A stretch of DNA of 64,000 bases, from positions 1-64,000 of the forward strand of contig JAFUPC010000025.1 of NCBI GenBank assembly GCA_017481495.1, written 5' to 3'. The stretch comes from Clostridia bacterium. GTDB lineage: Bacteria > Bacillota > Clostridia > Oscillospirales > CAG-272. The notes below the pieces were generated by a model. It was not told where the DNA came from. It worked only from the letters and a program-made list of their open reading frames with translations, and made no database searches. The position numbers were made by a program, and so were the translations under genes. Positions 47,305 through 59,168 of this stretch are shown in pieces. Position 1 is the stretch's first letter. Every line of letters begins with the position of its first letter.

Positions 47305-48603
47305 ATGCTTTCAAGACGTTGTGCCGCAGCCGTGTTCGCCGTTGTTTCCGCAATCTGTCTTCTGCTCGGTGTCGCATCCGGCGGACTCCCCTCTGCATAC
47401 GGTGATCTTTCCGCTGTCGGCACTGACGGCATCGTCATGGAAATACAGTACCCCGTCTATTCCCGTGATGTGGAACAGATCTGGTATGTCATCCGCAACA
47501 GTTCCGGCACACAGGCGGAATTCGGTCAGGAATGGTGTCTGGAACGCAGAATGGGCGATACCTGGGTACAGTGTCCCTTGCGTGACAGCGGCTGGGAATC
47601 CATTCTCTACGGTATTGCCGACGGCGGTGCCCACGCGTACAGCTTTAATCCCCAGCGCATCCAAGGAGTACTTTCCGATGGTGTTTACCGCATGGTAAAG
47701 GAAATTAACGGCACGCCTTATGCCGCAGAATTTTCCATCGGCACTTCCCCCATCACGCGGGATACCCCGAACGGCTACGCACCGCTTTCTTCCCTGCCCG
47801 CAGATTATACGGCGGAAGATGCGGCGGCGGACGGCGTGGTTTTCGCAGGCGGGGATGAGGACCGGGTGACGGACTTCTTTTCGTCGATGATGCTCGGTAT
47901 GCGGGATCAGCTCCGTGTCGGCGTGACCGGGGCGGACGGTTCCTTTGTCCTGCACGACCTCCAAATGGAAACGCTCTTCGGCAGTCTGCGCATCCGGTAT
48001 TCCGTTTGGCAGGCGGGGGAAACAACGGAAACGCTTTTCAGCCATTTTGTCCCGGCGGGTGTCATACCGGCACTGTCGGACACGGTGACCGTTACGGAGA
48101 GCACCGTGCCGCTTGCGTTCTTTTCCCTCTTTGACGACGAAACGGAAAACGCGGTTCTCGAAATGATCCCGGAATATCTATCTGTCCGCGGAACGTGGTC
48201 TTCCGTCACAGCCGTCTTCTGGTCAGCGGACGGAAACCGCAATCTCTCCCTATACGATGAACCGCTTTCGTTCGGTATCAACATCCGGGAAGCGGAAACC
48301 GGCGGCGAACGGGGCTATTCCGCCGCAGTCCCGGACGACATCGGCATGACGGAAATCCGCTCCGCCGTCTGGCAGGACAGTACCACCGTCATGCTCATCT
48401 GTGATACAGAATCGGGCGGCGATATGCTCGGATACGTCTTCTTTGACACCGAAACGGGTGAAGTCGGCAGTTATACTTTCTCCGCCCACAGGTACACGCA
48501 AGTGGACGGGTACACGCAAGTGGACGGGTACACGCAAGTGGACGGGTACACGCAAGTGGACGGGTATACGCAAGTGGACGGGGAGATCTTCATTCCCGAA
48601 TAA
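47305..48603 (+). CDS. Secreted Ig-like (Big_14-type) protein ending in a hexapeptide repeat
   Basis: A 432-residue exported protein. A signal peptide (AAAVFAVVSAICLLLGVAS) has no lipobox. Residues ~30-160 look like a bacterial Ig-like domain: MEIQYPVYSRDVEQIWYVIR, FGQEWCLERRMGDTWVQC, SDGVYRMVKEINGTPYAAEF. The middle is beta-rich and unrecognised. The C-terminus carries five exact YTQVDG repeats (from 48493) followed by EIFIPE. GAAAGGAG precedes ATG 47305. It sits directly before the ABC operon but has its own terminator; an accessory role at the cell surface is possible. Confidence 0.75.
   Translation: MLSRRCAAAVFAVVSAICLLLGVASGGLPSAYGDLSAVGTDGIVMEIQYPVYSRDVEQIWYVIRNSSGTQAEFGQEWCLERRMGDTWVQCPLRDSGWESILYGIADGGAHAYSFNPQRIQGVLSDGVYRMVKEINGTPYAAEFSIGTSPITRDTPNGYAPLSSLPADYTAEDAAADGVVFAGGDEDRVTDFFSSMMLGMRDQLRVGVTGADGSFVLHDLQMETLFGSLRIRYSVWQAGETTETLFSHFVPAGVIPALSDTVTVTESTVPLAFFSLFDDETENAVLEMIPEYLSVRGTWSSVTAVFWSADGNRNLSLYDEPLSFGINIREAETGGERGYSAAVPDDIGMTEIRSAVWQDSTTVMLICDTESGGDMLGYVFFDTETGEVGSYTFSAHRYTQVDGYTQVDGYTQVDGYTQVDGYTQVDGEIFIPE
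48493..48582 (+). repeat. 18-bp tandem repeat x5 in the Ig-like protein gene
   Basis: Five consecutive copies of TACACGCAAGTGGACGGG; only the last differs (TATACG). They keep the reading frame and encode YTQVDG five times. Copy number is likely to vary between strains by slippage. Confidence 0.97.
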
Positions 48604-48614
48604 AAAAATACCGT

Positions 48615-48645
48615 AAATCGCCGGAATCCATTTTTTCGGCGATTT
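48615..48645 (+). terminator. Terminator after the Ig-like protein gene
   Basis: AAATCGCCG / CGGCGATTT, a perfect 9-bp stem with a 13-base loop, followed by TTCTATTG. Confidence 0.85.
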
Positions 48646-53353: not shown

Positions 53354-54094
53354 ATGAAGAAGATTCTTGCTCTTCTGCTCGCGTGCGTTCTCGCATTCGC
53401 GTGCGTCGGCTGCGGCGGCTCTGATGAAGGTGCTGCGGATGTCAAGTCCGAGGGTGTCATGACCTACGCGGAATACACTGCGGCTGCGCTCGATACCCAG
53501 GTCGTCATCGAGGCATATGTTCAGGCAAAGCAGTCCTGGTGGGAAAATCAGGCAACTGTCTACGCACAGGACAAGGACGGCGCATACTTCCTCTACAACA
53601 TGGCTTGCTCTGAGGAGGATTATGCAAAGCTGACCCCCGGCACCAAGATCAAGGTTACCGGCTACAAGGCTGAATGGTCCGGTGAAGTTGAGATCATCGA
53701 CGCGACCTTTGAAATTCAGGAAGGCAGCTACATCGCAGAAGCACTCGATGTTACCGCACTGCTTGGCACCGATGAGCTCATCAAGCACCAGAACGAATTC
53801 GTTTCGTTCAAGGGTCTGACCATCGAAGCCATTACCGATGCAGACGGTGTCGAACACGACTTCCTCTATAACTGGGACGGTTCCGGTGAAGACGGTAGCG
53901 ACCTGTACTTCAACGTTTCCGTCAACGGCGCAACCTACCAGTTTACCGTCGAATCCTATCTCTGCGGCGCAGGCACCGAAGTTTATGAGGCTGTCAAGGC
54001 ACTCAAGGTCGGCGACAAGATCGACGCAGAAGGCTTCCTGTACTGGTATGAGGGTGTCAACCCCCACATCACCAAGGTTACTGCCGCACAGTAA
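53354..54094 (+). CDS. Lipoprotein with two OB-fold-like domains
   Basis: A 246-residue lipoprotein, lipobox ACVGC with Cys at residue 20. Two similar beta-barrel halves follow: ~45-125 (TQVVIEAYVQAKQSWWENQA, KIKVTGYKAEWSGEVEI) and ~145-245 (NEFVSFKGLTIEAITDADG, LKVGDKIDAEGFLYWYEG), each with the strand pattern of OB-fold proteins such as tRNA-anti-like domains. AAAGGAG precedes the ATG. Codon choice is more uniform than in the neighbours and promoter and terminator are both strong, which points to high expression. No ligand is known. Confidence 0.8.
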   Translation: MKKILALLLACVLAFACVGCGGSDEGAADVKSEGVMTYAEYTAAALDTQVVIEAYVQAKQSWWENQATVYAQDKDGAYFLYNMACSEEDYAKLTPGTKIKVTGYKAEWSGEVEIIDATFEIQEGSYIAEALDVTALLGTDELIKHQNEFVSFKGLTIEAITDADGVEHDFLYNWDGSGEDGSDLYFNVSVNGATYQFTVESYLCGAGTEVYEAVKALKVGDKIDAEGFLYWYEGVNPHITKVTAAQ

Positions 54095-54151
54095 CCGATT
54101 CCGGTCAGACATCTGATTTTTATCAGGCATCTGATTTTTGAATGGCCAAAG

Positions 54152-57774: not shown

Positions 57775-57937
57775 AATGTCTTCTCCGTTTTTATATGCTG
57801 TTTATAATCAGGTTTCTGAAAATCTGCAATCTTTTTTGTAGCAAAACAGATGCCGCTTTCATCTCCTTTGAAGCCCCAAACGGCACCTTCAATATTAAAT
57901 GCTATTTATGATTATGCACCTGCACACGTATGCTTCT

Positions 57938-58009
57938 GCGCATTTATGCGCGTGCGTATTTATACGCGTGCGTATTTATACGTGTGCGTACTTATACACA
58001 TTTATGCGC
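57938..58009. repeat. 16-bp tandem palindromic repeat at the end of argD
   Basis: About 4.5 units at a 16-base period, each built on a palindrome with a TT centre: GCGCATTTATGCGC (57938-57951), GCGTATTTATACGC (57954-57967), GCGTATTTATACGT (57970-57983), GCGTACTTATACAC (57986-57999), then a partial copy that includes the TAA stop and last Ala codon of argD. Confidence 0.9.
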
Positions 58010-59168
58010 GTTCGCACGCCGCCATCAGCACGGCGATCGCCTTTTCCAGCAGTTCCATGGGAATGTTCAGTGCCGGAAGCAGACGCACCTTGTCCTTAGC
58101 CGTCAGGCAGAGAACACCGTGCTCCATGCAGTATGCAAGCACTTCACCGGCAGGCTTTGTCGTTTTGATGCCAATCATCAGACCCATACCGGTGACACTT
58201 TCGACACCGGGTGCTCGGGACAGTGTCTCAAACACATAGGCGCTCTTCCGTCTGACATCCGCAAGCAATTCGTCGTTAAGGCGGTCGATGACTGTCTGAG
58301 CACCCGCACAGCAGACGGGATTGCCGCCGTAGGTGGAGCCGTGGTCGCCGTAGCCGAGAACCGCTTCGACCTTTTCTGCCATCAATGCCGCACCGAGCGG
58401 CAGTCCGCCGCCAAGTCCCTTTGCCGTTGTCACGACGTCCGGCTGAATGCCGTAATTCATATAGGCATACAGCGCACCGCTTCTGCCGTTGCCGGTCTGC
58501 ACTTCGTCGACGATCACAATGATGTCGTGGGCGTGGGCGTATTCATAAAGACCCTTTACAAATTCTGAATCCAGCGCATTGACGCCGCCCTCACCCTGCA
58601 CCATCTCGATCATGATGGCGGCAAGCTTGTTCTGCTCCGCCGTTTTGATCAGTGCATCCAGGTCATTTGCCGGGGTGTGGACAAACCCGGGGGTCAGCGG
58701 CTGGAACAGTTCGTGAAAATGATCCTGCCCTGTTGCCGCAAGGGTCGTCAGCGTTCTGCCGTGGAAGCTGTTGAGAAGTGTCATGATGGTGTAATACTCC
58801 GCACCTTTATGCTCCGCCGCATACTTTCTTGCGACCTTGATGGCACATTCATTCGCTTCCGCGCCGGAATTGGCAAAGAAGACCTTCTTCATGCCGGTGC
58901 GCTCACAGAGCGTTTTTGCCAGTTTTGCACAGGGTTCCGTGTAGTACAGATTCGACATATGCTGGACTTTCCCGAGCTGCTCTGTGACCGCGGCAGTCCA
59001 GACATCGTCCGCAATGCCGAAGCTGTTGACCGCAATGCCGGAACCCATGTCGATGTAATCTTTTCCCGTTTCGTCATACACAAGCGAACCCTTGCCGGAA
59101 ACAATTTCCACCGGGAAGCGCTTGTAGGTATTTGCCACATATTCTTTGTCTATCTGTTTGGTATCCAT
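58002..59168 (-). CDS. argD: Acetylornithine aminotransferase
   Basis: A 388-residue PLP enzyme that converts N-acetylglutamate semialdehyde to N-acetylornithine. FFANSGAEANECAIKVARKY is the N-terminal cofactor region, IVIVDEVQTGNGRSG the Asp-Glu-containing strand, and the lysine that binds PLP lies in TTAKGLGGGLPLGA. Full length. Fourth gene of argCJBD on the minus strand, 11 bases after argB. The gene's stop codon lies inside a tandem palindromic repeat. Confidence 0.95.
   Translation of the reverse strand: MDTKQIDKEYVANTYKRFPVEIVSGKGSLVYDETGKDYIDMGSGIAVNSFGIADDVWTAAVTEQLGKVQHMSNLYYTEPCAKLAKTLCERTGMKKVFFANSGAEANECAIKVARKYAAEHKGAEYYTIMTLLNSFHGRTLTTLAATGQDHFHELFQPLTPGFVHTPANDLDALIKTAEQNKLAAIMIEMVQGEGGVNALDSEFVKGLYEYAHAHDIIVIVDEVQTGNGRSGALYAYMNYGIQPDVVTTAKGLGGGLPLGAALMAEKVEAVLGYGDHGSTYGGNPVCCAGAQTVIDRLNDELLADVRRKSAYVFETLSRAPGVESVTGMGLMIGIKTTKPAGEVLAYCMEHGVLCLTAKDKVRLLPALNIPMELLEKAIAVLMAACERA

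Follow-up and report, generated by a model that had tools for sequence, protein, structure and literature searches.

Background

Short repeats inside genes have been described in several forms. Rickettsia palindromic elements are palindromic, lie in frame within protein-coding genes and occur as dispersed families about 100 bp or longer; compared with these, the array studied here, which encodes (YTQVDG)5, has no second copy in its own assembly. An overview of prokaryotic satellites requiring at least four copies (Subirana and Messeguer 2019, PMC6749651) covers bacterial intragenic minisatellites, which, as far as its available text describes them, resemble our array in being short multiple-of-three units inside genes. 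PARCELs (PMC2996958) share with the class of 15- and 18-bp repeats reported below the combination of in-frame coding tandem repeats and dyad-symmetric DNA, and are characterised in the accessible part of that work as one 25-residue motif, detected through a hidden Markov model, whose spread was probably horizontal. In Escherichia coli, quasipalindromes (hairpin-forming imperfect inverted repeats) are described in the accessible text as hotspots of template-switch mutation at replication (PMC7202029).

We analysed an array of five 18-bp units in a draft genome of a Clostridia bacterium (Oscillospirales, CAG-272; GCA_017481495.1), within a window of 64,000 nt (contig JAFUPC010000025.1, positions 1 to 64,000), together with tandem repeats elsewhere in the same genome. 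Taken singly, the array is an ordinary coding minisatellite whose origin is unusually clear. The repeats of this genome differ from the minisatellites of the satellite overview, within the text available, in that short periods are almost only 15 or 18 bp, the sequences are varied and several of the hosts are housekeeping genes. Dyad symmetry, a feature of the 15/18-bp class here, finds no mention in that same text (PMC6749651), and because of the requirement for at least four copies the densities given there are not comparable with our counts. Unlike PARCELs, the units here are 5-6 residues long and mostly unrelated among loci, and two of them (in the YTQVDG tail and in MutY) come from the host gene's own sequence; identity of the array with a PARCEL was rejected, its unit having 6 residues and not 25. 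Among the satellite and PARCEL literature covered, most subscription papers being outside its scope, no dyad-rich set of 15/18-bp repeats in housekeeping genes was found in the text available.

Sequence and frame of the array

The array (Table 1) begins with four identical copies of TACACGCAAGTGGACGGG, starting at 48493, 48511, 48529 and 48547. Tandem Repeats Finder reports it at 48491-48582 with period 18, 5.1 copies, 98% match and a score of 177, the highest of 38 rows in the window. At distance 18 the exact match extends over 58 bases, which excludes chance, given that runs of only 14 bases occur at 0.10-0.38 per distance (121-400 bp) in the sampled genome. The translation of the 1,299-bp gene ends in SAHR(YTQVDG)5EIFIPE, the array being in frame and ending 6 residues short of the C-terminus. 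Adjacent near-identical copies in an open frame, with a unit that is a multiple of three, are what defines an intragenic tandem repeat (minisatellite). The earlier note had described four identical units and a fifth differing at one base, and both sequence and Tandem Repeats Finder agree; its view that the array is recent accords with the near identity of the copies, and its expectation that an 18-bp unit preserves the reading frame is confirmed by the translation.

Table 1. Features of the array-bearing gene (window coordinates) and in-frame 15/18-bp arrays in other sampled stretches (L-numbered coordinates).
Feature	Position	Strand	Basis or remark
Gene for a 432-aa, probably exported protein: signal-like N-terminus, Big_14, beta-rich C-terminal part	47305..48603	+	ORF, translation, relatives
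N-terminal hydrophobic segment, probably for export	47305..47382	+	read by eye
Big_14 bacterial Ig-like domain, residues 41-143	47425..47733	+	Pfam PF20251, E 4.7e-17
In-frame tandem array, 5 x 18 bp, encoding (YTQVDG)5	48493..48582	+	sequence, Tandem Repeats Finder, translation
Fifth and last unit, TAT replacing TAC	48565..48582	+	sequence; with EIFIPE corresponds to the relatives' single-copy tail
Terminal EIFIPE and stop	48583..48603	+	I, P and E nearly invariant (at least 90%) among 15 aligned sequences
Intrinsic-terminator-like hairpin and T run 3' of the gene	48615..48645	+	12 pairs
In-frame 15/18-bp array, read as UvrA	L061 4486-4554		
In-frame 15/18-bp array, read as topoisomerase I	L110 19045-19118		
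In-frame 15/18-bp array, read as MutY	L125 1749-1803		
In-frame 15/18-bp array, read as methionine synthase	L124 6450-6508		
In-frame 15/18-bp array, read as CCA-transferase	L055 15853-15936		

The assembly is a fragmented draft (3,231,435 bases in 126 contigs, 86% complete), and fragmentation of this kind is the one point that would favour an array made by misassembly. However, the 92 bp are shorter than common read lengths, assembly errors would usually collapse arrays and not expand them, and one unit carries a base change of its own, which makes an artefact very improbable. Searching the 3.23-Mb assembly with the DNA unit and up to 3 mismatches returned the array itself and two single matches elsewhere, against 3 for the reversed-pattern control, and the 30-residue array used as a protein query gave no second match in the assembly up to E 10. 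Tails resembling YTQVDG in other proteins, for which the earlier note had proposed a search, were found in the assembly by neither route.

The array ends 33 bp before the terminator-like hairpin, one of 5 such sites in a region where shuffles predict 2.0, and this position might suit a 3'-terminal RNA or DNA element of the gene, such as a set of repeated binding sites. Folding against shuffles gave no signal for the array as RNA (z 0.04) or as DNA (z -0.49 and 1.45 for the two strands), although one unit alone reached z -2.29, and the reading frame and the relatives described below both favour protein coding. A regulatory role is therefore hardly plausible.

Host protein and genomic surroundings

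As the earlier note had proposed, the host appears to be an exported protein with an Ig-like domain. Export is probable from the hydrophobic N-terminal segment, and the match to PF20251 (62.3 bits, gathering threshold 27) places the protein in the Big_14 family. An AlphaFold2 model built from an 8-sequence alignment has a mean pLDDT of 81.5, with residues 402-422 of the array below 50. Foldseek of this model against the PDB returned partial matches only, with query-normalised TM-scores of 0.15-0.20 among the 50 rows listed, from which no function was inferred, and no match to the protein was found in phages.

Inspection of the alignment by eye revealed a lipobox-like Cys at the N-terminus of 13 of 14 relatives, which is missing from the array protein and from L023. 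In the array protein, positions 47305-47394 encode no canonical lipobox Cys of the kind that marks a lipoprotein. Because this Cys is missing here and present in nearly all relatives, the array protein may have lost a lipid anchor and be free instead of lipid-anchored. Loss of the Cys by a single base change was considered and dropped, as the alignment does not place this residue unambiguously.

The gene upstream has Pfam matches to GHL6, Glyco_hydro_42M and Alpha_L_fucos, and the ORFs downstream resemble a sugar ABC transporter by eye. When window ORFs of at least 100 aa from about 36-62 kb were compared with loci L031-L038, the host gene and its antisense frame being set aside, an ABC-transporter ATPase alone was matched, in one locus (L038); on the strength of a single neighbour in one locus we do not claim a conserved operon.

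Relatives and origin of the array

Relatives of the array protein occur in 10 of 98 related genomes and in 19 of 395 genomes of the family, the own genome being included in both counts. Eight named relative loci are MAGs: three from goat, one each from roe deer, water buffalo and chicken, one Oscillospiraceae and one Bacilli (short match only). A scan of contigs of genomes with the array protein alone found no relative, and the same scan with a 5-row alignment yielded 8 loci, of which L031-L036 are genes already recovered in the family and related-genome searches. Partial sequences (L015-L017, L025-L028), short frames (L022, L029, L030) and second occurrences of a gene present in two loci were dropped, leaving 14 full-length relatives that bear the tail; a fifteenth, L037 from chicken, stops before it.

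In the alignment, all 14 tail-bearing relatives have a single segment of 5-7 residues at the position of the array, closing with G in 12 and opening with Y in 9 (by eye). With one segment in every tail-bearing relative, the array is best read as the expansion of an ancestral piece, and YTQVDG, judged from these alignments, is a tail segment duplicated in situ and not an inserted element. A local-duplication origin, as in intragenic minisatellites, is thereby traced at the protein level; the ancestral nucleotide unit is not visible, the relatives (26-39% protein identity) having diverged too far in their DNA.

Tandem repeats of 15 and 18 bp across the genome

Repeats were surveyed in 141 stretches of the own genome, 2,175,268 bases including 97,007 N (2.08 Mb), or about two thirds of the assembly. 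Tandem Repeats Finder returned 25 arrays that reach 2.9 copies, 85% match and a period of 9, of which 10 have period 18 and 7 have period 15; none of this set has period 9, 12, 21 or 24. An exact-repeat count (runs of at least 14 at distances of 2-120) over the same 2.08 Mb gave 80 repeats, 12 at 15 bp and 22 at 18 bp (34/80), with one each at 12 and 24 bp and none at 21 bp. Distances of 121-400 bp in the sampled genome show a background of 0.38 repeats per distance where the distance divides by three, and of 0.10-0.14 where it does not. Open frames of at least 200 codons contain 31 of the 34 repeats of 15 or 18 bp and 3 of the 7 whose length in the range of 14-20 bp does not divide by three, an open frame here being the longest in any of six frames and not a proven gene. 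With its period of 18 and its place in an open frame, the YTQVDG array fits this class. E. coli K-12, counted over 350 kb, had no repeat at 15 or 18 bp, although the rate of the own genome predicts about 5.7. The family loci (181,606 bases, with L009-L013 and L023 left out as duplicates) had one repeat at 15 and none at 18 bp against about 3 expected, a small count from a non-random and partly overlapping sample.

A Pfam scan (E up to 1e-10) of ten chosen array-bearing frames matched nine, L169 having no match. From their domains and sequences the nine are read as UvrA, methionine synthase, a MutY-type adenine glycosylase, topoisomerase I, CCA/poly(A) transferase, a nucleotidyltransferase, a sulfatase, a protein kinase and a polysaccharide deacetylase. 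The putative MutY reads DFVRAT-NFVRAT-NFVWAT-KEEI, where each of 9 orthologues, drawn from 8 genus genomes, carries a single copy (distant matches L190 and L191 were dropped); on this comparison its array is, like the YTQVDG array, a local duplication. In the predicted CCA-transferase, a stretch of about residues 82-127 that includes a KETVS array is skipped in the matches from 7 of the other 8 genus genomes, and G007, the remaining one, had no match; by alignment this stretch is a segment absent from the others.

Other repeats were seen along the way. In the window, a tandem array of period 16 (3.8 copies, 91% match) occupies 57937-57997, immediately beyond the stop of a minus-strand ORF (58002-59168), and its unit contains a perfect inverted repeat of 6 bp. 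An 18-bp unit in 1.9 copies at 54105-54139, with the dyad TCAGA-CA-TCTGA and a T run, lies just downstream of ORF 53354-54094 and looks by eye like a duplicated terminator. Elsewhere in the genome, 46-bp units (L103 1854-1990; 3.0 copies, 98% match) overlap no open frame of at least 90 codons.

Is the array a surface tail?

The earlier note suggested that the array could form a variable stalk or binding tail. Taken as a selected, length-variable surface tail, it would tune adhesion, ligand binding, or evasion of immunity or phages through changes of copy number. This idea draws on a host protein that is probably exported and has an Ig-like domain, and on the array being the highest-copy exact 18-bp array in the sample. 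However, the array is a five-fold copy of a single segment that is an ordinary part of the ancestral tail, sits at the extreme C-terminus and is disordered in the model, and only EIFIPE follows it, with no LPXTG or other anchor seen by eye. In a length-variable surface adhesin the stalk lies between an anchor and a binding domain; here the array is C-terminal, and inspection by eye showed neither an anchor after it nor a lipobox Cys. The predicted disorder and the lack of anything anchor-like after the array make a stalk function unlikely. Similar arrays also lie in repair, tRNA and metabolic enzymes, and as arrays of the same period occur in predicted intracellular enzymes of the same genome, no surface-specific role is needed. 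The array thus looks more like the outcome of an unspecific error in copying than like a device made for the surface, and a selected surface tail seems improbable.

A probable near-neutral slippage duplication

We consider the array to be a near-neutral slippage duplication, built by successive in-place copying of one 18-bp segment and one product of a genome-wide process, with a probability of about 0.7. The starting point would have been an 18-bp segment for the hexapeptide that directly precedes the final conserved residues in an exported Big_14 protein. A replication error, namely slippage, possibly across the GG at both unit ends, may have produced the first duplication, and ordinary slippage between units the later copies. 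The array would then have persisted by being in frame in a tail that tolerates changes of length, as one of the genome-wide set of 15/18-bp duplications. Its effect is likely to be a flexible tail 24 residues longer, with little functional consequence. A point against near-neutrality is that the unit sequence is intact across five copies, in the array with the highest copy number among exact 18-bp arrays of the sample; both features could also be explained by selection.

Dyad symmetry and SbcCD

A narrower form of the slippage explanation, compatible with it, supposes that the nascent strand folds at dyadic segments of 14-20 bp during replication and that these are copied again, giving duplications of about the length of the hairpin, with the array as one product. 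Such a reading shares the idea of hairpins as hotspots with the work on quasipalindromes, whose accessible text does not describe tandem duplication of whole segments (PMC7202029). In its favour, the perfect inverted arms of the 15- and 18-bp units exceed those of random units drawn from this genome (mean 4.26 vs. 3.03, n = 34), with 41% in the top 10% of controls, and none of 5000 random sets reached the mean arm of the 15- or the 18-bp units. Arms of at least 5 occur in 50% vs. 4.5% of 15-bp units (n = 12) and in 36% vs. 7.8% of 18-bp units (n = 22), whereas for repeats of at least 21 bp the difference is small (4.84 vs. 4.39, n = 32, 9% in the top 10%). However, the YTQVDG unit shows no significant dyad symmetry of its own, with a perfect arm of 3 (P 0.74) and 5 of 7 dyad matches (P 0.34), just 15% of the 34 units reach the top 5% of controls, and the test, applied to a single genome, is post hoc, having been devised after dyads had been spotted by eye in some of the tested arrays.

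The distribution of SbcCD, which cuts hairpins, offers a further point of contrast. In the own genome SbcD has three weak partial matches (best E 3.4e-9), none over the cut-off, and the best SbcC match is weak (3.1e-4), whereas 4 of 9 genus genomes (G002, G003, G005 and G008) have SbcD over the cut-off along with strong SbcC segments (best E 4.5e-43 to 1.0e-46). Against this, SbcD over the cut-off is also absent from four other genus genomes (G001, G004, G006 and G007), and the SbcC cut-off is passed by 0 of 9 genus genomes, 13 of 14 control genomes failing as well. The lack of sbcCD could be a gap in the draft and, with the assembly 86% complete, its absence from the own genome is only suggestive. 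Loss of mismatch repair as a cause was likewise considered and is unsupported, MutS being present over the cut-off. Weighing these points, we treat hairpin-directed duplication as a tentative possibility. Doubtful, in our judgement, is a fuller scheme in which a distinct mutational process of this genome generates tandem duplications 14-20 bp long, with a preference for sites able to form hairpins. Selection on the reading frame would spare the products of 15 and 18 bp, which would have placed arrays of 5-6 residues in repair, tRNA and surface proteins, and these would persist because the SbcCD hairpin nuclease has been lost. On this scheme the YTQVDG array would be the exact 18-bp product with the most copies in the sampled part.

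Two palindromic motifs are also over-represented in the sampled 2.08 Mb, GAAAC-N-GTTTC (29 occurrences vs. about 4.7 expected) and TTCGC-NNN-GCGAA (44 vs. 2.5 expected), and are possible dispersed palindromic repeats.

Implications

The array itself is best explained as a local in-frame duplication, most likely near-neutral. If the wider pattern of 15/18-bp repeats holds, a bacterium whose essential genes keep receiving short tandem duplications of nearly fixed length would lend itself to studying the part of hairpins, SbcCD and replication slippage in the creation of new protein segments, and sister genomes with and without SbcCD make the idea that connects hairpins and this nuclease testable.
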